A DNA stretch of 64,000 nt, taken from the NCBI GenBank assembly GCA_022565665.1, contig JAIUMI010000004.1:62001-126000 (forward strand). The letters run 5' to 3'. This stretch comes from Glycocaulis sp. Lineage in GTDB: Bacteria; Pseudomonadota; Alphaproteobacteria; Caulobacterales; Maricaulaceae. The notes under the pieces are model-generated. The model searched no databases. It was not told the origin of the DNA and was given only the letters and a program-made list of their open reading frames with translations. Below are positions 3,519 to 54,909 of the stretch, one piece after another (position 1 is the stretch's first letter; each line of letters starts with the position of its first letter). The position numbers were made by a program, and so were the translations under genes.

Positions 3519-4757
3519 CTATTCGTGACGCAGCGCGTCGATAGGGTTGAGGCGGCTGGCCTGATGGGCCGGATAGAATCCGAACAGGATACCGACACCG
3601 GCCGCCGCCGCGATGGCAACAAGGGCGATGACCGGTTCGATCGAGACCGCAAACTGGCCCAGCGATTCGACCACCAGTGCGCCAATCGCCCCGCCGACCA
3701 TGCCGATCAGCCCGCCTGCCGCGCACAGCACCACGGCTTCGATCAGGAACTGGTTCCTCACGTCCGCGCGCCGCGCGCCTATGGCGAGGCGCAGGCCGAT
3801 CTCCCGCGTGCGCTCGGTCACCGAGACCAGCATGATGTTCATGATCCCGATACCGCCCACGACCAGCGAAATCACCGCAGTTGCCGCGAGCAGCAGGCCC
3901 AGCTGGCTTTCGGTCTCGCTGCGCGCGCGGATGAATTCGGCGAAATTGACCACGGAGAAATCATCATCCGCGCCGGGCCGGATATTGCGCCGCACGCGCA
4001 TCAGGTCGGAGATTTCCTCCGAGGCAATATCGAGATTGCGCGCGTGATCTATGCCCAGCCAGACGGTCTGCACCGGATTTCTGACCCCGGCGCGCGAGAA
4101 GCCGGACAGACGGTCGCGCATGGTGGTGGTGGGTACGAAGATCACATCGTCCTGGTCCTGCCCCCAGCTGGACTGGCCGCGGTCTGCGAGTATCCCGACC
4201 ACTTCCAGCGGTACGCCGTTGACCCGTACATTGGCGCCGAGCGCGCCGCCTGCCGGGAACAGCTCGTTGACCACGGTGCGTCCGAGAACGGCGACACGCG
4301 CGGCCCCGTCCAGCTCCGGCACGGTGAAGGCGCGGCCCTCCACCACGTCCCAGTCACGCACGAAGAAATAGTCAGGGTGGGAGCCCACCACTTCGGTAGA
4401 CCAGTTCACACCGTCGACCAGCGCCGTCAGGCCGCGCTGCTGGATGACGCCGGCCGCCGCGATGATGTAGGGGACTTCCTCACGCAGGGCTTCCACATCC
4501 TCATCGGTCAGAGGCGCAGCCGAGCCTGCCCCGCCGCGCACGCCGCCCCGGAAGGAGGAGCCGGGCCGCAATTGCAGCGAATTGGCGCCCAGCGCGCTGA
4601 TCTGGGCATCCACAGCGGCTTTTGCGCCTTGCGAGATAGAGATCATCACGATGACCGAGCCCACGCCGATGATGACGCCCAGCATGGCCAGAAAGCTGCG
4701 CAGGGCGTTCACCCGCAAGGCTGTCAGCGCGACGGAGACCGCTGCCATCGGGTTCAT
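3519..4757 (-). CDS. MacB-type ABC transporter permease (FtsX/MacB_PCD)
   Basis: 412 residues with the MacB plan: one N-terminal membrane helix (about 20-42, FLAMLGVIIGVGSVIVMI), a large periplasmic MacB_PCD domain to about 270, then an FtsX domain with three helices at the C-terminus. The segment ERTREIGLRLAIGA before the second helix is the typical coupling region of the family. The family works as a mechanotransmitter that powers export from the periplasm through an outer-membrane TolC channel. No TolC gene is present in the window. It overlaps the ATPase gene by four bases. There is no fused ATPase, so this is the split MacB type. Confidence 0.9.
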   Translation of the reverse strand: MNPMAAVSVALTALRVNALRSFLAMLGVIIGVGSVIVMISISQGAKAAVDAQISALGANSLQLRPGSSFRGGVRGGAGSAAPLTDEDVEALREEVPYIIAAAGVIQQRGLTALVDGVNWSTEVVGSHPDYFFVRDWDVVEGRAFTVPELDGAARVAVLGRTVVNELFPAGGALGANVRVNGVPLEVVGILADRGQSSWGQDQDDVIFVPTTTMRDRLSGFSRAGVRNPVQTVWLGIDHARNLDIASEEISDLMRVRRNIRPGADDDFSVVNFAEFIRARSETESQLGLLLAATAVISLVVGGIGIMNIMLVSVTERTREIGLRLAIGARRADVRNQFLIEAVVLCAAGGLIGMVGGAIGALVVESLGQFAVSIEPVIALVAIAAAAGVGILFGFYPAHQASRLNPIDALRHE

Positions 4758-5437
4758 TTGCTGTCCTCCACAATTAGACCATCCCGGAAGATGATACGCC
4801 GTTTGGCGCGCGCGCCCACATCGGCCTCATGGGTCACGAGAATGAGGGTGATGCCCGACGCGTTGAGCTGGTCGAAAATGTCCATCACATCGTCAGACGT
4901 CCTGGTATCGAGCGCGCCGGTGGGCTCGTCAGCCAGCAGGATGCGCGGCTCGTTGGCCAGCGCCCGGGCAATGGCCACGCGCTGCTGCTGACCGCCGGAA
5001 AGCTGAGAGGGATGGTGGTCCATACGGTCCCCCAGCCCCACCATTTCAAGGCAAGCCGCTGCCCGCTCACGGCGCTCGGATGCCGGCATCCCGCGATAGA
5101 GCAGGGGCAGGGCGACATTATCCAGCGCCGTGGTGCGCGGCAGCAGGTTGAACTGCTGGAAGACGAAGCCGACCATCTCGTTACGGAAACGGGCAAGATC
5201 ATCCGGCGAGCGGTTGAGCAGGGACTGCCCGGCTATCGTCAGCTCCCCGCCGGAAGGCGTGTCGAGCGCCCCCAGCATGTTCATGAAGGTGGATTTGCCA
5301 GACCCCGACGCGCCCATCACGGCGACATACTCGCCCTCGGCGATGTCACAATCGACACCGCGCAGGGCGTGCACATCGCCGCCGCCCAGCCGGTAGACGC
5401 GTGTGAGCTGGCGGGCGCGTATCAGTGGCGCGCTCAT
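4754..5437 (-). CDS. MacB-type ABC transporter ATP-binding protein
   Basis: 227 residues, a complete ABC ATPase: Walker A GASGSGKST 42-50, Q-loop Gln94, signature LSGGQ 146-150, Walker B LLADEP with Asp170/Glu171, and the LolD/MacB-subfamily motif EPTGALD. It supplies ATP hydrolysis for the permease encoded directly downstream and overlaps both neighbours (start shares base 5437 with the end of the adaptor gene; end overlaps the permease start), so all three proteins are translationally coupled. Confidence 0.93.
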   Translation of the reverse strand: MSAPLIRARQLTRVYRLGGGDVHALRGVDCDIAEGEYVAVMGASGSGKSTFMNMLGALDTPSGGELTIAGQSLLNRSPDDLARFRNEMVGFVFQQFNLLPRTTALDNVALPLLYRGMPASERRERAAACLEMVGLGDRMDHHPSQLSGGQQQRVAIARALANEPRILLADEPTGALDTRTSDDVMDIFDQLNASGITLILVTHEADVGARAKRRIIFRDGLIVEDSK

Positions 5438-6930
5438 CAGCGGGTCTCGCGCACGCGCACGACCACCTGGTCCCCCGCCGAGAGACCTTCGCCCATGATC
5501 TGGGTGTGTTGACCGTCTGACAGGCCAACCCTGACCGGGCGCGACTCGATGCGCCCGTCGGCACGCCGGATCCAGACCGTGCCGCGCTGCACTTCTTCAC
5601 GTCCGCCGCGGCGCTGCCCGCCCTGACGGCCTCCGCCTTGCGCGGCCTGCGCCATCATCTGGTTCAGCCGCGACATCTCTTCGGCGGTCAGCACATCGCC
5701 CAGCGCGCGCTGGATGGCCGCCTGGAAGCCACCGGGGCCACCACCGCCGCCGCCACCGCCCCGGCGCATATTCTCCATTGCGCCTTCGAGCGCCCGTTCG
5801 GCTGCTGCGCGCCGGTCGGCGGGCAGCTCCAGCGGGTCGAGCAGGCGGGCAAACATGGCCGCGCCCGGCCCACCGCGGCCCGGCTGGCCGGAGCCTGCGC
5901 TGCTTTCCACGACAAGGCTCTCGGCGGCCCCGCGCGGCTGGAAGCGCAGGGCAGTCGCCGGAACGGTCATGGCGCCTTCCACCTCACCGGTGATGATGTT
6001 CACATTGGCCGTCATGCCGGGCAGCAGGCGCTGGCCTGGATTATCCGCCTCGATCACCACCGTATAGGTGACGACATTCTGCTCGGTGATGGCGGCCAGG
6101 CGCACCTGACGCACCGCACCCTCAAAGCTGCGCTCGCGGAAGGCGTCGACCTCAAAGGTAACCGGCTGACCTACGGCGATCTGGCCAATATCGGCCTCGT
6201 CCACACGCGCTTCGATCTGAATGCGGGAGAGATCGCGCGCAATGATGAAGAGGACCGGCGCATTAAGGCTCGCAGCGACAGTCTGGCCCACATCGACCTG
6301 ACGGTCGATCACCACGCCATCAATCGGCGAGCGGATGGTGGTCCGGTTGAAATCAACCTGCGCGCTTTCAAGGCTCGCCTGTCGCTGGTCCAGCGTTGCG
6401 CGGGCATTTCTCAGATTGGCCTCGGCGACCTGCACGCTGGCTCTCGCCGAATCCCGCGCCGTCTCGGCCGTGTCGAACTGAACGCGCGAGAAGGTGCCGC
6501 GCTCCACCAGTTCGCGCGCGCGCTCGAAGGCGCGCTCAGCCTCGCGCAGTTCCGACCGCGATCGGGTGAGATTGGCCTGGCTGACCGCGACCTGTGCCTG
6601 CGCCACCTCGAGGGAGGCCTGTGCCTCGCGCACACGGGTTTCGAAGGTCTGCGGGTCGATGCGCGCAATGATCTGGCCAGCTTCCACCTCGTCGTTGAAA
6701 TCGGCCATCAGCTCCAGAATCTGGCCGGACAGCTGCGAGCCGACCTCAACCGTGATCAGCGGCGCAATGGAGCCGGTGGAGGCCACGCGCCGGGAGAGGT
6801 CACGCGATTCAATGGCCGCAGTTTCGATCTGCAGCGCATTGCCATTACGGGTGCCAAAAGCCTGCCAGCCGAAAATGGCGGCGGCGCCCAGCGCGATGAC
6901 GACAAGGGCCGGTATCAGGAAGCGTTTCAT
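5437..6930 (-). CDS. MacA/HlyD-type periplasmic adaptor subunit with Gly-rich insertion
   Basis: 497 residues. N-terminal membrane anchor (about 4-25), then lipoyl half-motif, a long Ala/Arg/Glu-rich coiled-coil hairpin (about 95-200), second lipoyl half (VDVGQTVAAS) and a beta-barrel to about 330, as in MacA. Ordinary MacA-like adaptors have about 370-420 residues; here a segment of about 116 residues (roughly 333-448) separates the barrel from the last 49 residues. It contains two predicted helices and poly-Gly/Arg-Gly tracts. First gene of the exporter operon; its upstream region is 6931-7271. The substrate is unknown; families of this type export peptides, lipopeptides or macrolides. Confidence 0.86.
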   Translation of the reverse strand: MKRFLIPALVVIALGAAAIFGWQAFGTRNGNALQIETAAIESRDLSRRVASTGSIAPLITVEVGSQLSGQILELMADFNDEVEAGQIIARIDPQTFETRVREAQASLEVAQAQVAVSQANLTRSRSELREAERAFERARELVERGTFSRVQFDTAETARDSARASVQVAEANLRNARATLDQRQASLESAQVDFNRTTIRSPIDGVVIDRQVDVGQTVAASLNAPVLFIIARDLSRIQIEARVDEADIGQIAVGQPVTFEVDAFRERSFEGAVRQVRLAAITEQNVVTYTVVIEADNPGQRLLPGMTANVNIITGEVEGAMTVPATALRFQPRGAAESLVVESSAGSGQPGRGGPGAAMFARLLDPLELPADRRAAAERALEGAMENMRRGGGGGGGGPGGFQAAIQRALGDVLTAEEMSRLNQMMAQAAQGGGRQGGQRRGGREEVQRGTVWIRRADGRIESRPVRVGLSDGQHTQIMGEGLSAGDQVVVRVRETR

Positions 6931-7271
6931 AAATCAGGTCCGTACGAAGAGGGGCGCCAGCGCTTTTGCAGGTTTGTCTGGCGTTGGGAACAACGTTCAA
7001 CACGTTCATTTTCCGTCGCTTACATGAACCTGCCATGAGATTCGACCAGCCAGATGCGAATGGCTCGCAATAACGGGTGTCTAAATGCTGGAAATTTCGG
7101 CGGATTCCTGCCTGTTACGGCTTGCGGCGGGCGGCGGTGCGCACTAGCTTCCGCCCCGATTTGACAGGCCGGTAACATTTCTGTCAGGGACTGACGACCG
7201 CGTCCCGTCAGGCAGGATTTCCGGTTGCCTGCGGGATAATCGGACCGGTCACGAGAGAGCCAGGGCGGACC
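6931..7271. other. divergent intergenic region between exporter operon and nuo operon
   Basis: 341 bases with no credible gene. It must hold the promoters of both operons. Visible items: a perfect -35-like TTGACA at 7161-7166 with no good -10 at 16-18 bases; a TATAAT-like GATAAT at 7235-7240, 32 bases before the nuoA start; and an inverted repeat TGACAG-N13-CTGTCA at 7162-7186 that overlaps the TTGACA. On the minus side GGAC at 6939-6942 is a weak ribosome site for the adaptor gene. I cannot assign a promoter with confidence. Confidence 0.4.
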
Positions 7272-7637
7272 ATGGACGCGCTACTTCTGGAATACCTTCC
7301 CATCCTGATCTTCTTCGCCATCGCGCTGGCCATGGGGATCGGGTTCATCGTGGCGGCTGCGGTTCTCGCGCCCAGCGATCCTGACCCGGAGAAGGTGTCC
7401 ACATACGAGTGCGGCTTCAACGCGTTCGAGGATGCGCGCATGAAGTTCGACGTCCGCTTCTACCTCGTGGCGATCCTGTTCATCATCTTCGATCTGGAAG
7501 TGGCCTTCCTCTTCCCGTGGATATTCCCGATCTATGAAGGCAATATCTTCGCTTTCTGGTCGATGATGGTTTTCCTGACCGTGCTGACGGTCGGTTTTAT
7601 CTATGAGTGGCGCAAGGGCGCCCTCGACTGGGAGTAA
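7272..7637 (+). CDS. nuoA: NADH-quinone oxidoreductase subunit A
   Basis: 121 residues, usual length for NuoA (ND3). Three membrane helices (about 7-30, 64-86, 92-112) and the conserved ND3 loop [20 protein letters not shown] between the first and second helices, including the Cys that reports the active/deactive state in the mitochondrial protein. It is part of the membrane arm of complex I next to the quinone site. First gene of the nuo operon; the stop is six bases before nuoB. Confidence 0.97.
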
Positions 7638-7643
7638 GCGATC

Positions 7644-8207
7644 ATGGCGAACCCCTCCGCTCCCGCATTGTCCGCCGCCCGCACCGGCGTGCCGGCCTAC
7701 GACCCCAAAAAGCATGACCCGTTCTTTGACGGGCTGTCTGATCAGCTGGCCGACAAGGGCTTTCTGGTTGCGCGCGCTGATGATCTCATCACCTGGGCGC
7801 GCACCGGCTCGCTGATGTGGATGACGTTCGGTCTGGCCTGCTGCGCTGTCGAGATGATGCAGGCGGCCATGCCGCGCTACGACCTTGAGCGCTTCGGCGC
7901 CGCGCCGCGCGGCTCCCCCCGTCAGTCCGACGTGATGATCGTTGCGGGCACGCTCACCAACAAGATGGCGCCGGCCCTGCGCAAGGTCTACGACCAGATG
8001 CCCGAGCCCCGCTATGTCATCTCCATGGGCAGCTGCGCCAACGGCGGTGGCTATTATCACTATTCCTACTCGGTGGTACGTGGCTGTGACCGGATCGTGC
8101 CGGTCGATATCTACGTCCCCGGCTGCCCCCCGACCGCCGAAGCGCTAGTCTACGGCATTCTCCAGCTTCAGAAGAAGATCCGCCGGGAAGGCACGATCGA
8201 GCGCTAG
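7644..8207 (+). CDS. nuoB: NADH-quinone oxidoreductase subunit B
   Basis: 187 residues. It carries the terminal iron-sulfur cluster N2 that reduces quinone: ligands Cys66 and Cys67 ([10 protein letters not shown]), Cys131 (GSCANGGG) and Cys161 (PGCPP). The N-terminal 30 residues are a variable extension. The start ATG at 7644 is well placed after the nuoA stop. It pairs with NuoD at the arm junction of complex I. Confidence 0.97.
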
Positions 8208-8237
8208 TCCACCCGTTTCAACCCCGCGAGCTACCCC

Positions 8238-8855
8238 TTGAGCAAGCCAGACACCCTTTCCGAACTCGCCGCGCACATCTCTGATGCGCTGAGCGAGGAT
8301 GTGCGCGAGCATGTGATCTCCCATGACGAGCTGACCTTGCACATTCATCGCGACCGGGTGGTCAAGGTGCTGACCTTCCTGCGCGATGACCCCAGCTGCC
8401 GGTTCACGACGCTGATCGATATTTGCGGGGTCGACTGGCCGTCGCGGTCTGACCGCTTTGACGTCGTCTACCATTTGCTTTCCATGCATCAGAATACGCG
8501 CATCCGGGTGATGCTCGCCGTTGCGGAAGACACCAGCGTTGATAGCGTGGTCGACATCTTCCCGGCTGCCAACTGGTTCGAGCGTGAAGCGTTCGACATG
8601 TATGGCGTGGTATTCGATGGCCATCCGGATTTGCGCCGCATCCTCACCGATTACGGGTTTGAGGGTTTCCCGCTGCGCAAGGACTTCCCGCTCACCGGCT
8701 TTGTAGAGGTGCGCTATGACGAGGCGCAAAAGCGTGTCGTCTATGAGCCGGTGAACCTCGTGCAGGAATACCGCGACTTCGATTTCCTCTCGCCCTGGGA
8801 AGGCGCCAGGCTCGTCATTCCCGGCGACGAGAAGGCGGAAGGGGGCGGCCAATGA
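8238..8855 (+). CDS. nuoC: NADH-quinone oxidoreductase subunit C (TTG start)
   Basis: 205 residues; the 30-kDa subunit of complex I, separate from NuoD (not fused as in E. coli). The conserved segment [20 protein letters not shown] followed by [21 protein letters not shown] is plain. The start is TTG at 8238 and no clear Shine-Dalgarno sequence precedes it; no in-frame ATG lies close by, and the N-terminus [12 protein letters not shown] fits the family. The stop overlaps the GFA gene start by four bases (ATGA). Confidence 0.95.
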
Positions 8856-9289
8856 GCGCCCAAGCTAAGACAGCCAAGGGTCAGTGCCTGTGCGGGGACG
8901 TGCGCTTCACCGTAGCGCTCAAGAACACCCATCTGGACGCCTGTCATTGTTCCTATTGCCGGGCCTGGTGTGGTGGTGGGCCGTTCCTGGGCGTATCGTG
9001 TGCCGAGCCGCCTGTGTTCGAGTCCGAAGAGGCTGTTGGCGTCTATTCGTCTTCCGAATGGGGTGAGCGCGTGTTCTGCAAGAACTGCGGCTCCACGCTC
9101 TTCTGGCGCATGAAGGATGGTTCGAGTGTCTCAGCGTCCGCCGGCGTGCTTGATCTCGGTAACGAGGCTGATCTGACCTTGCAGATATTCGTGGACGAGA
9201 AGCCGGCCTATTACAAATTCGCCAATAAAACCAAAATGATGACGGGCGCTGAAGTGTTTGCGCAGTTTGCGGGCGGGCAGGAAGGCTAG
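8852..9289 (+). CDS. GFA/CENP-V family zinc-binding protein inside the nuo operon
   Basis: 145 residues. It has the cysteine pattern of the GFA (glutathione-dependent formaldehyde-activating / CENP-V) fold: Cys12-x-Cys14, Cys31-x-Cys33-x2-Cys36 and Cys76-x2-Cys79, which bind one structural and one catalytic zinc in the family. The family includes glutathione S-hydroxymethyl transferases, but most members have no proven substrate. It overlaps nuoC by four bases and ends four bases before the nuoD ATG, so it is made together with complex I; a direct link to the complex is not shown. Confidence 0.87.
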
Positions 9290-9293
9290 AACA

Positions 9294-10484
9294 ATGGCTG
9301 AGCAGGACATCCGCAATTTCACCATCAATTTCGGCCCCGTGCACCCGGCCGCACACGGCGTGTTGCGCATGGTGCTGGAGCTGGACGGCGAGGTGGTCGA
9401 GCGCGTGGACCCGCATATCGGCTTGTTGCACCGCGGCACCGAGAAGCTGCTGGAGCACAAGACCTATCTTCAGGGCATCGGCTATTTCGACCGGCTCGAT
9501 TACGTCGCGCCGATGAACCAGGAGCATGCTTTCTGTCTGGCGGTGGAGCGCCTTGCCAGCATTCCGGTGCCCAAGCGCGGCCAGTATGTGCGCGTACTCT
9601 ACTGTGAGATCGGCCGCATCCTCAACCACCTGCTGAACGTCACCACGCAGGCGATGGATGTCGGCGCGCTCACCCCGCCGCTCTGGGGCTTTGAAGAGCG
9701 CGAAAAGCTGATGATCTTCTATGAGCGTGCGTCAGGTGCGCGCTTGCACGCGCACTATTTCCGTCCCGGCGGCGTGCATCAGGACCTGCCACAGGAATTG
9801 ATCGACGATATCGCGAAATGGTGTGAGGAATTTCCCAAGGCGCTCAACGATATCGACGCGCTTCTGACCGATAACCGCATCTTCAAGCAGCGCAACGCCG
9901 ATATCGGTGTCGTGTCGAAGGAGGATGCGCTGGCCTGGGGTTTTTCTGGCGTGATGGTACGCGGGTCCGGCATGGCGTGGGATTTGCGCCGTGCGCAGCC
10001 CTACGAGGTCTATGACGAGCTCGATTTCAGAATAGCCATCGGCAAGAATGGCGATTGCTATGACCGCTATCTCGTCCGCATGGAGGAGATGCGCGAGTCC
10101 TGCAAGATCATGCAGCAATGCTGTGAGTGGCTGTCAAAGCCGGAAAATCAGGGCGAGGTGCTGCCGACCGATACCAAGTTCGCCCCGCCGCGCCGTGCCG
10201 AGATGAAGCGCTCCATGGAAGCGCTCATCCATCACTTCAAGCTCTATACCGAGGGCGTCCACGTGCCCGAAGGCCATTACTATGCCGCTGTGGAAGCGCC
10301 CAAGGGCGAGTTCGGCGTCTATCTGGTCGCTGACGGCACCAATACGCCTTACCGGGTGAAAATCCGCGCGCCGGGCTTTGCCCATCTGGCGGCCATGGAT
10401 CACCTCAACAAGGGCCACATGCTGGCCGATGTGTCGGCCATTCTCGGCTCGCTGGATATCGTGTTCGGGGAGGTGGACCGGTAA
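9294..10484 (+). CDS. nuoD: NADH-quinone oxidoreductase subunit D
   Basis: 396 residues, the 49-kDa subunit forming the quinone pocket with NuoB. Family hallmarks: [17 protein letters not shown] at the N-terminus, the quinone-site loop with His and Tyr residues, and the C-terminal [10 protein letters not shown] start at ATG 9294 (MAEQDIRNF) rather than an in-frame upstream start at 9258, which lies inside the GFA gene and adds residues not seen in the family. The stop TAA shares its last base with the next ATG. Confidence 0.97.
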
Positions 10485-28484: not shown

Positions 28485-29802
28485 AGGAGCCACCAGACCA
28501 GCCAAGGGGGCTAACGGCGCTGGCGCGTTCAGCGCCTTCGAGTTCATGCTCGCCTTCCGCTATCTGCGCACACGGCGCAAGCATGGCGGGGTGACGCTGA
28601 TTTCGGTGATCTCCTTTGTCGGCATCATGCTGGCCGTGACGGCGCTGATCGCGGTCATGTCCATCATGAACGGCTTCCGGCATGAATTGCTGTCGCGCCT
28701 TCTGGGCGTGCAGCCGCATGTCTATGTCTACACCACCGATAACCGCCTGCTGACCGATGAACTGACCAACCAGATCAATGCCGTACCGGGCGTGCGCATG
28801 GCAGGCCCTGTCATCGCGGCGCAGGCGCTCCTCAGCTCTGAGCGGGCCGCCACCGGTGCGCAGGTGATCGGCGTGCGTCCGCAAGATCTCGCCCGCTTCG
28901 ATCTTATTGCCGGTGATGGCGAGGCCGCTGCGGCTGGCGGAGGCATTGTGCAGGGCTCGGCAGACGAGTTCGGCGTCGGCCATCATGGCGGGGACGGCAT
29001 TCTGATTGGTTCCGGCATTGCCGCCCATCTGGGTGTCAGCGCGGGCGATACCGTCACCCTGCTCGCGCCGCAGGGTGCCTCAACCCCCATGGGCACTGTG
29101 CCGCGCCGCAAGAACTATGTGGTCGAAGGCGTTGTTTCCATGGGTGTTCTCGATCTCGACCGCATCTATGTGTTCATGCCGCTGGAGCAGGCCGCGCTCT
29201 TCTTCAACCGCACCGGCGCGGACTATATCGATATCCGGGTGACCAACCCCGATGCGCCCGAAGCCGTCGTCGAGGCGGTGCGCCAGCTTGTGCCGCCGGG
29301 CTCGGCTGTCTTTGACTGGCGGCGGCAGAACCAGTCCTTCTGGACCGCGCTGCAGGTGGAGCGCATGGCGATGCGGCTCATCCTCTCCATCATCGTGCTG
29401 ATCGCGGCCATGAACATCATCTCCGGCCTTGTCATGCTGGTGAAGAATAAGAGCCGCGATATCGCCATCCTGCGCACGATGGGTGCGACGCAAGGCTCGA
29501 TAATGCGGATCTTCCTGATCTCTGGCGCAATGATCGGCGTGCTGGGTACAGCGGCGGGCATCGTGCTCGGCATCCTCATCGCCGTCTTCATCGGGCCGAT
29601 ACAGGATTTCCTCGCCTTCGTGACGGGCGTCGATGTGTTCGATCCGTCGGTCTATCTCTTGTACCGCCTTCCCGCGCGGCTGGACTGGGCCGAAGTGGTG
29701 TTCGTGGCCTTCTGGGGCTTTGCAACCGCGCTGCTGGCCACGCTGCCGCCATCCTGGCGGGCAGGGCGCATCGATCCGGTGGAGGCGCTGCGCTATGAGT
29801 GA
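28477..29802 (+). CDS. lolC: lipoprotein-releasing ABC transporter permease (LolC/LolE family)
   Basis: 441 residues, GTG start at 28477 overlapping the proS stop. One N-terminal membrane helix (about 42-66, after [18 protein letters not shown]), a large periplasmic domain, and three C-terminal helices with the family segment [24 protein letters not shown]. Takes lipoproteins out of the inner membrane and hands them to LolA. Alphaproteobacteria normally encode one LolC/E-type permease that probably forms a homodimer; lolD follows with an eight-base overlap. An internal start at a later Met is possible. Confidence 0.93.
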
Positions 29803-30475
29803 GCCGGCTCTCTCCCTGCGCGGCCTGGTGCGCCGCTACGAAACGGATGCCGAAACCATCGAGGTGCTGAACGGCGCCGATCTCGACCTCATGCCGGGCG
29901 AGCTGGTGGGCCTTGTCGGGCCGTCGGGGTCTGGCAAGTCCTCGCTGCTCCATGCCGCTGCACTTCTGGAAAAACCCAATGCGGGTTCGGTGAAGATCGG
30001 CGGGATTGATGGTCTGGCACTGAACGAGCGCGGACGCACCGCTTTGCGCCGCCGTGAAATCGGGTTTGTCTATCAGTTCCACCACTTGCTAGCTGAACTT
30101 GATGCGATGGATAATGTCGCTCTGCCCCGCCTCATCGCAGGGGAGAGCCACAAAAGCGCCCGCGCCAAGGCAAAAGGCTGGCTGGAAAAGCTGGGGCTTG
30201 GCGCGCGTCTCACTCACCGCCCGCCCCAGCTCTCCGGCGGCGAGCAGCAACGCGTAGCCATCGCCCGCGCGCTGGTCAGTAATCCGCGTGTCCTGCTGGC
30301 TGATGAACCAACCGGCAATCTCGACCCCGCCACCTCCGATCAGGTGTTTGACGCGCTCGCCAGTGCCTGCCGGGAGGCGGGCGCGGCCGCGCTCGTGGCC
30401 ACCCACAATCTGGCGCTCGCCGAGCGCATGGACCGGGTGGTGACGTTTGAGAACGGGCGGATCGTCGTCGCCTGA
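29795..30475 (+). CDS. lolD: lipoprotein-releasing system ATP-binding protein
   Basis: 226 residues from ATG 29795 ([11 protein letters not shown]). ABC ATPase with Walker [10 protein letters not shown] 42-50, signature LSGGE 146-150, Walker B LLADEP with Asp170/Glu171 and the subfamily motif EPTGNLDP. Powers the permease encoded just upstream. A longer open frame from 29633 exists in this reading frame but runs inside lolC and adds nonfamily residues. Confidence 0.95.
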
Positions 30476-30540: not shown

Positions 30541-30569
30541 TTGACGCCGGAACAAATAGGGAATATATG
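30541..30569 (+). promoter_or_regulatory. sigma-70-type promoter of the sidA-like gene
   Basis: TTGACG (30541-30546), a 17-base spacer and TATATG (30564-30569) form a strong housekeeping promoter pointing at the 30-codon gene; the transcription start would be near 30576-30578. LexA-type box 1 lies inside the spacer and touches the -10, box 2 covers the start point. Confidence 0.75.
30550..30564 (+). promoter_or_regulatory. LexA-type SOS box 1 (GAAC-N7-GAAT)
   Basis: Reads GAACAAATAGGGAAT, one base away from the alphaproteobacterial LexA operator GAAC-N7-GAAC (GTTC-N7-GTTC on the other strand). It sits between the -35 and -10 elements, where a bound repressor would block RNA polymerase. Confidence 0.72.
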
Positions 30570-30574
30570 TGTTG

Positions 30575-30589
30575 GAACAAAACATGAAT
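30575..30589 (+). promoter_or_regulatory. LexA-type SOS box 2 (GAAC-N7-GAAT)
   Basis: Reads GAACAAAACATGAAT, again one base from the consensus, same orientation as box 1 and 25 bases downstream of it, at the expected transcription start. Two sites with the same single deviation in one short region are unlikely by chance in DNA of this composition. Confidence 0.62.
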
Positions 30590-30620
30590 TAACGATCATT
30601 CCGCCATAGGAGACAGGCAC

Positions 30621-30713
30621 ATGAAACGGTTCTTCGAAGAGGCCAGCGCAGCGTTCGTGACGGTCGGATTTGTGGCTGTGATGCTTACTTGGAGCACCGC
30701 TCTGGCGGGCTGA
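30621..30713 (+). CDS. sidA: 30-residue membrane peptide, probable SidA (SOS-induced cell division inhibitor)
   Basis: Seen: ATG 30621, 30 codons and TGA; a good ribosome site GGAG at 30609-30612, eight bases before the ATG. The product starts MKRFFEEASAAF (charged, amphipathic) and continues with one hydrophobic helix, VTVGFVAVMLTW, to the end. It lies between lolD and dnaE under a promoter with two LexA-type boxes. Known: Caulobacter crescentus SidA is a 29-residue, single-helix inner-membrane peptide, induced by DNA damage through LexA, that blocks division by acting on FtsW/FtsI, and to my recollection its gene is beside dnaE. Inferred: this is the same gene. Without an alignment another small stress peptide cannot be excluded. 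Confidence 0.78.
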   Translation: MKRFFEEASAAFVTVGFVAVMLTWSTALAG

Positions 30714-30761: not shown

Positions 30762-34235
<3,474 letters not shown>

Positions 34236-54142: not shown

Positions 54143-54817
54143 CTAGTGATAGCGGCGGATCAGCCCGACCAGACGGCCCTGCACCTGCACCCGGTCCGGA
54201 CCGAAAATGCGCGTCTCATAGGCCGGATTGGCCGCTTCCAGCGCAATCGATCCGCCCTTGCGGCGCAGGCGTTTGAGCGTGGCTTCCTCATTATCGACCA
54301 GCGCCACGACAATCTCGCCATTATTGGCCGTATCGCCGCGTTTGATGATCACCACATCGCCATCGAGAATGCCTTCCTCGATCATGGAATCGCCTTCCAC
54401 TTCGAGTGCGAAATGCTCCCCGCCGGAAATCATCTGGGCCGGTACGCCCAGCCGGTCGCGCTCATGCTGGATAGCCTCGATCGGCACACCGGCAGCGATC
54501 TTGCCAAGCAGGGGCACGCCGATGGAGTCAGAGACCGTATCGGAACGGGAGAAATCAGCCTGCACCACATTGTCACTCGTGCTGCGGGCGGGCGGTGCGG
54601 CAGAATCCGGCAGTTTGAGCACTTCGAGCGCCCGTGCCCGGTGGGGCAGGCGGCGGATGAAGCCGCGTTCTTCCAGAGCGCTGACCAGCCGGTGCACACC
54701 CGATTTGGAGGCGAGTTGCAGCGCGTCCTTCATCTCGTCGAAGGAAGGCGACACGCCATCTTCGGACAAGCGCTTGTGAATAAAGAGCAAAAGCTCGTGC
54801 TGCTTGCGGGTGAGCAT
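54143..54817 (-). CDS. lexA: SOS repressor LexA
   Basis: 224 residues. N-terminal winged helix-turn-helix (1-65; [33 protein letters not shown]), linker, then the self-cleaving S24 peptidase domain: cleavage bond Ala109-Gly110 ([10 protein letters not shown]), nucleophile Ser144 (EGDSM) and general base Lys182 (ATLKRL). When RecA filaments form, it cuts itself and frees SOS genes. Its own promoter carries a perfect SOS box at 54881-54895, so it is autoregulated. It follows trpC on the same strand. Confidence 0.98.
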
Positions 54818-54880: not shown

Positions 54881-54909
54881 GTTCTATACCTGTTCCGCTG
54901 GCCGGTCAA
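54881..54909 (-). promoter_or_regulatory. lexA promoter with overlapping SOS box
   Basis: Read on the minus strand: TTGACC (54909-54904), 17-base spacer, TAGAAC (54886-54881). The perfect operator GAAC-N7-GAAC occupies 54881-54895 and covers the -10 element. A third GAAC half-site lies six bases after it (54871-54874 region), and an imperfect GAAC-N7-GAAG-like element at 54855-54869 in the other orientation. The leader to the ATG is about 57 bases. Confidence 0.85.

Follow-up and report, generated by a model that had tools for sequence, protein, structure and literature searches.

A small membrane-peptide gene with LexA-type boxes upstream of dnaE in Glycocaulis, probably a remote relative of the division inhibitor SidA

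Introduction

What is the role of a 30-codon open reading frame (ORF) that stands directly before dnaE, the gene for DNA polymerase III alpha, and behind a pair of LexA-type boxes? The question arises in a stretch of 64,000 nucleotides from Glycocaulis sp. (assembly GCA_022565665.1, contig JAIUMI010000004.1, positions 62,001 to 126,000; hereafter the window), where a sequence-only reading proposed that the ORF encodes a probable SidA, the SOS division inhibitor of Caulobacter, and would extend the SidA checkpoint beyond that genus. SidA of Caulobacter crescentus, the product of CCNA_02004 (PMC10769358), is described in the cited passages as a 29-residue inner-membrane protein that is the primary SOS division inhibitor and acts on FtsW (PMC4211646), and those passages describe it solely for Caulobacter.

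Results

The peptide gene and its promoter

The ORF on the forward strand (Table 1) translates as MKRFFEEASAAFVTVGFVAVMLTWSTALAG, and the following features that the sequence-only reading had attributed to it were recovered: the ATG start, the GGAG ribosome site eight bases upstream and a single hydrophobic helix. The helix is a prediction from sequence, with a Kyte-Doolittle mean of 1.87 over the best 17 residues, and is of the transmembrane type. The stop codon lies 48 bp before the start of dnaE on the same strand. The peptide has no Pfam match at E≤1; the Pfam and PHROGs searches returned weak, chance-level matches only, and the PDB search returned none.

The reading frame is intact in all six genus members drawn, the window's genome included, and no frame-breaking difference was seen among them. 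Of the 24 differences that separate the window from locus L090, 5.5 are nonsynonymous, where about 17.8 would be expected without selection (binomial P 6e-7); the nonsynonymous deficit is similar against L092 (P 6e-6) and weaker against L098, the most distant genus member (P 0.02). Across the genus, the boxes and the ORF also align by eye better than the remaining intergenic DNA. As judged from these comparisons, the peptide is under purifying selection at the amino-acid level, and its kept frame and mostly synonymous substitutions indicate that the ORF is a real, easily overlooked gene.

The two LexA-type boxes that had been claimed for the promoter are present in the form GAACN7GAAT, and the other five genus members read have the GAAT form in both of their boxes. 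By eye, box 1 is located between a -35-like TTGACG and a candidate -10, TATATG; a consensus promoter scanner found nothing at its threshold at this promoter. The same layout recurs in part among the loci of the window's GTDB family, where TTGAC stands 9-10 nt before a box in 18 of 72 loci and 14 of 19 neighbouring box pairs have a spacing of 24-25 bp. Because GAACN7GAAY matches only three times in the window (the two peptide boxes and one site upstream of lexA) against 2.3 expected by chance, the evidential weight lies in the placement of the boxes and not in their number. The putative operators of the peptide resemble those of lexA and recA of the same genome, both of which have the full GAACN7GAAC, that of recA being GAACACAAGCAGAAC, about 120 nt upstream of the recA match.

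Conservation upstream of dnaE

Across 110 loci (L009-L118), we screened the short ORFs that precede dnaE by means of an iterated hidden Markov model (HMM) seeded from eleven such peptides, so that the survey is not independent of those eleven. The peptide was found in 85 of the 110 loci, comprising 55 of 80 named genome records and all 30 family loci, the window among them. Another 42 family loci added 41 positives. In total, box, peptide and dnaE occur together in 71 of the 72 family loci, and the peptide is thus present before dnaE in the relatives, its absence there having been named beforehand as grounds for abandoning the proposal. The underlying family search covered 79 genomes, 73 of them with a dnaE match; one weak match (G017) is not among the loci read.

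The arrangement can also be recognized without any profile, as a LexA-type box followed within 5-90 nt by an ORF of 24-50 residues with a hydrophobic stretch. This test, from which two named loci and one class locus with less than 250 nt of upstream DNA were left out, was positive in 71 of 72 loci for the family, in 48 of 78 for the named records and in 18 of 126 for the class. Dinucleotide shuffles gave 0.1, 0.0 and 0.0 positives per set, respectively, and the reversed box pattern gave none, one and one. Boxes lacking such an ORF occurred in one family, three named and 12 class loci, with 2.4, 3.5 and 4.9 boxes per shuffled set. Of 289 class genomes searched, 265 had a dnaE match, and 127 of those supplied the class loci; 18 of 126 is not a class-wide rate because these loci were picked from the rows most like the window's dnaE.

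The named positives go well past what the sequence-only reading had envisaged. They are Caulobacter, Phenylobacterium, Brevundimonas, Asticcacaulis, Maricaulis, Oceanicaulis and Robiginitomaculum, together with Aquisalinus, a Parvularculaceae bin, Parvibaculum, Tepidicaulis, a Rhodobiaceae bin and a PS1-clade bin, as well as Bradyrhizobium, Nitrobacter, Tardiphaga, Pseudolabrys, a Rhizobium-labelled bin, Kaistia and Stappia. Among the 25 named negatives are Stella, Caenispirillum, Phaeospirillum, and records labelled Kiloniellaceae, Minwuiaceae, Rhodospirillales and Asaia. Many records are metagenome bins whose labels are possibly wrong, and two loci, L073 and L080, have merely 65 and 167 nt of upstream DNA. 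The distance from peptide to dnaE ranges from about 5 to 255 nt among the loci.

A 30-column profile containing the window peptide and its relatives (A1) gave 10 matches at E≤0.01 in the 289 class genomes. Nine of these, among them that of the window's genome, share the strand of dnaE and stand no more than about 300 nt upstream of it; G110 is the exception. By itself A1 reached 10 of 289 genomes, and reading the DNA upstream of dnaE gave more. The survey HMM was applied to 87 class loci and detected the peptide in 13 of them at E<0.05, 40 further class loci being outside that run. Eleven class loci have a box and no HMM match: five of them (L158, L169, L172, L221 and L242) carry a hydrophobic ORF of 31-35 residues after the box, and the other six have no such ORF by the profile-free test. 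The peptide profile therefore probably undercounts.

Two class loci outside the HMM run, L318 and L335, were also seen to have a box before dnaE and a short single-helix ORF, which extends the range for the seven loci to 31-39 residues; from their sequences, all seven are possible further diverged branches of the peptide family.

The gene, its operators and its position before dnaE are well supported by these surveys.

We also note that one locus of the family, L196 (genome G002, a single draft assembly of 610 contigs), has a box, GAACAAATAAGGAAC, directly before dnaE with no peptide between. From its sequence this is an apparent loss of a sidA-like gene with retention of the operator, and dnaE may there itself be under LexA.

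Relationship to SidA

The curated model for SidA is the NCBIfam equivalog NF033228, with a cut-off of 35 bits. The peptides upstream of dnaE in two Caulobacter records (73.7 and 60.2 bits; the Caulobacter loci scored do not include that of C. crescentus), in one Phenylobacterium record (67.2 bits) and in another Caulobacterales bin (37.5 bits) pass it. The adjacency of SidA and dnaE, which the sequence-only reading had put forward, is accordingly confirmed for Caulobacter and Phenylobacterium. The peptides of Brevundimonas (26.9 bits, E 3.3e-6) and Asticcacaulis (26.5 bits, E 4.5e-6) tried at this locus score below the cut-off, which may be too strict in leaving them out. Those tried from a Maricaulaceae-type locus (L101), Robiginitomaculum, Bradyrhizobium and Aquisalinus gave no match. 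At E≤10, 22 of the 45 members of A1 match the model; above the cut-off it found nothing in the 289 class genomes, the window's genome included, and one match in 14 controls. The class genomes are spread over many families, and only four come from the window's order.

The window peptide is 34% identical to the Caulobacter peptide of L026 in a near-ungapped alignment. When profiles were aligned with hhalign, the window group (11 sequences) matched the Caulobacteraceae group (19 sequences) at E 4.9e-6 with a probability of 86%, in register from residue 1, and the Rhizobiales group (11 sequences) at E 5.1e-7 (92%); the match between the Caulobacteraceae and Rhizobiales groups was weaker (E 1.4e-4, 52%). 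An HMM from the Rhizobiales group found 16 of 67 held-out loci at E<0.01 and 47 at E<1, with no unrelated ORFs, and recovered the window peptide at E 0.008; the corresponding Maricaulaceae HMM found 14 of 55 at E<0.01 and 46 at E<1, again with no unrelated ORFs. With a joint Caulobacteraceae and Rhizobiales model, 30 held-out peptides of the window's kind were scored, and 17 exceeded the 99th percentile of layout-preserving shuffles.

Column statistics, computed with weights on 79 distinct sequences from the 85 positive loci, reveal four constrained positions: D or E at column 7 (94%), A or S at column 10 (88%), F17 (85%) and W24 (63%). Their spacing of 3, 7 and 7 suits one face of a binding helix as predicted from sequence; a test for a helical period in the conservation did not reach significance (P 0.064).

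Since homology is supported by synteny, shared operators and group profiles jointly, and by no single pairwise score, the best reading of these sequences is that the window peptide is SidA-like, a remote SidA homologue and not a member of NF033228. The proposal of a probable SidA stands in that form, on the strength of synteny, boxes, alignment and profiles, and does not stand as membership in the curated family. At the level of sequence, the comparisons demonstrate kinship to peptides whose Caulobacter members match the SidA model, together with the coding constraint on the gene, its LexA-type operators and the conserved position before dnaE.

We also compared FtsW among eleven genomes, numbering its SidA suppressor sites by the L026 Caulobacter protein (A31, F145 and A246 there). 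The FtsW of the window's genome keeps F145 and A246. F145 and A246 both occur in Phaeospirillum, and A246 in Stella, the two genomes compared that lack the peptide; among those with it, Stappia and Aquisalinus have M145 and Kaistia has S246. Residues at the suppressor sites do not follow the presence or absence of the peptide and consequently neither support nor refute the proposed function.

Neighbouring features

The features of the locus and the lexA region are collected in Table 1. The name of the upstream neighbour is a presumed one, taken from the translation only. By eye, the lexA promoter is laid out like that of the peptide, with TTGAC and then a box. Outside the window, contig C10 of genome G000 carries a second DnaE-type polymerase (4699-9869, minus strand) with a box, GAACAAAATAAGAAC, about 2.2 kb upstream, which we take to be the layout expected of an imuA-imuB-dnaE2 SOS operon.

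Table 1. Positions of the peptide gene, its putative control elements and other features in the window
Feature	Position	Strand	Remarks
lolD-like ABC transporter ATPase gene	29795..30475	+	upstream neighbour; start by eye within ORF opening at 29633
-35-like TTGACG	30541..30546	+	by eye; candidate -10 TATATG 17 nt downstream (30564-30569)
LexA-type box 1, GAACAAATAGGGAAT	30550..30564	+	pattern GAACN7GAAT; kept in five other genus members read
LexA-type box 2, GAACAAAACATGAAT	30575..30589	+	pattern GAACN7GAAT; 25 bp after box 1
Ribosome-binding site AGGAGA	30608..30613	+	GGAG end 8 nt 5' of ATG
sidA-like microprotein gene	30621..30713	+	30 residues, ATG to TGA, one predicted hydrophobic helix (about residues 10-28)
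dnaE (DNA polymerase III alpha)	30762..34235	+	TIGR00594 match; start approximate
lexA	54149..54817	-	model match 54149-54814; ATG by eye at 54817
LexA-type box upstream of lexA, GAACAGGTATAGAAC	54881..54895		about 63 nt before lexA; full GAACN7GAAC

Discussion

The explanation of the locus that we consider likely is that the gene encodes a SidA-like, LexA-repressed, single-pass microprotein of the inner membrane that would hold the FtsW/FtsI/FtsN complex inactive during the SOS response. Without damage, LexA would sit on two operators, one within the promoter and one just past it. DNA damage would activate RecA and lead to cleavage of LexA, and the peptide would then be made, probably with some read-through into dnaE. 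Its helix would insert into the inner membrane and keep the late septal peptidoglycan complex inactive, such that division would wait until repair is done. We infer LexA binding and induction, membrane insertion, contact with FtsW/FtsN and inhibition of division by the window peptide from the analogy with C. crescentus SidA.

Several observations weigh against this explanation. The window peptide itself has no match to NF033228 at E≤10. An HMM built from Caulobacteraceae peptides alone found, among 60 held-out loci, only 3 at E<0.01 and 29 at E<1, missed the window peptide (E 9.1) and scored two unrelated ORFs at E<1. With the joint Caulobacteraceae and Rhizobiales model, the window peptide scores 6.7 bits, a value equalled or beaten by 5 of 200 of its own layout-preserving shuffles, and the remaining 13 of the 30 held-out peptides of its kind fall below the 99th percentile. 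Both boxes end in T, each being one base off the GAACN7GAAC (GTTCN7GTTC) consensus. FtsW position 31, at which A31K strongly suppresses SidA, is T in this genome. A few records of close kin are without the peptide, including one with the label Caulobacteraceae (L045) and one with the label Hyphomonadaceae (L047).

In direct HMM comparison, Caulobacteraceae SidA and the window peptide resemble each other weakly, which would also be expected if unrelated short helices had arisen several times next to a conserved dnaE promoter under LexA control, the likeness of the two peptides then being one of composition only. The in-register profile matches among three clades argue against such convergence (even if that between Caulobacteraceae and Rhizobiales is the modest one), as do the intermediate NF033228 scores in Brevundimonas and Asticcacaulis, the similar length and the same pattern of acid 7 and F17, and we find it quite improbable. 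That the amino acids matter little, and that the ORF is instead a leader peptide or translational coupler regulating dnaE, is a thought prompted by its place before dnaE and by L196, where the box remains directly before dnaE without a peptide. The variable distance to dnaE and the selection at the amino-acid level speak against it. The RNA fold around the peptide is no better than shuffles (z 0.15), with no sign of an attenuator, no terminator-like site was found around the peptide or between it and dnaE, and no Rfam element matched at the locus; we rejected a leader or RNA element, which appears highly improbable.

A different possibility is that the peptide is another kind of SOS-induced small protein that, like DinQ of Escherichia coli, which depolarizes the membrane, would act by stressing or depolarizing the membrane rather than by binding the divisome. 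The single hydrophobic helix and the LexA-type promoter would suit such a protein, and DinQ is described in the cited passage as an SOS-regulated toxic single-transmembrane peptide (PMC3567139). The constrained columns (acid 7, F17 and W24) and the kinship with curated SidA better suit a specific binding helix, and the lack of an Rfam match likewise counts against a DinQ-like protein, making it unlikely in our judgement.

Among described systems, the SidA-like reading finds its closest counterpart in SidA itself: 29 residues versus 30, one helix, a nearly ungapped alignment, LexA-type operators and, in Caulobacter-type loci, a place directly before dnaE. The two differ in the modest identity to the L026 peptide and the lack of an NF033228 match, in residue 24 (W in the window peptide and V in L026), and in having two boxes, whereas about 97% of C. 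crescentus SOS promoters are reported, in the cited passage, to have one (PMC12700426). DidA of C. crescentus is likewise a single-helix division inhibitor acting on FtsW/I/N (PMC4211646, cited passage), but it has 71 residues, is controlled by DriD independently of the SOS response and binds FtsN; this comparison is by description and not by sequence. YneA of Bacillus subtilis, ChiZ of Mycobacterium tuberculosis and SosA of Staphylococcus aureus are small membrane proteins and SOS- or damage-induced division inhibitors that, in the cited part of a 2026 paper, are modelled on transmembrane helix 7 of FtsW at low confidence, as SidA is, also not at high confidence (PMC13396833). The likeness is again one of description, and no homology is claimed: YneA and ChiZ have a LysM domain, which is absent from the 30-residue window peptide (no Pfam match at the threshold given above), and SosA has an extended region. 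SulA of E. coli is an SOS division inhibitor as well (PMC4211646, cited passage), but it targets FtsZ polymerization and not the septal wall synthases.

Relative to NF033228, the spread of SidA-like peptides described here is new, and the SidA division brake is probably more widespread in the Alphaproteobacteria than the database model shows. No report of wider SidA conservation appeared in the literature searched; the founding work (Modell 2011, da Rocha 2008, Erill 2004) lies outside it, and an earlier notice is possible. We lean, with some caution, towards a broader interpretation in which LexA box, single-helix microprotein and dnaE constitute an ancient SOS checkpoint of the Alphaproteobacteria that has been handed down vertically; it would be present in the relatives of Caulobacter and Maricaulis, in Parvularculaceae, in Rhizobiales and in further lineages, and SidA of Caulobacter would be one branch of it. 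The near-fixed acid 7 and the heptad of A/S10, F17 and W24 would form the divisome-binding face, and coupling with dnaE would increase the amount of replicative polymerase for as long as division is halted. Most such peptides would be unannotated because they are some 26-46 residues long and have diverged so far that the SidA model misses them.

The natural variants, which are diverged and number in the dozens, provide a ready set for finding the helix residues that stop FtsW, and the apparent natural loss in L196, together with the dnaE linkage, makes a coupling of replication and division testable. Should the peptides linked to dnaE be SidA homologues, an unrecognized SOS division checkpoint with a known candidate target in FtsW/FtsN would exist in many Alphaproteobacteria, including symbionts like Bradyrhizobium.
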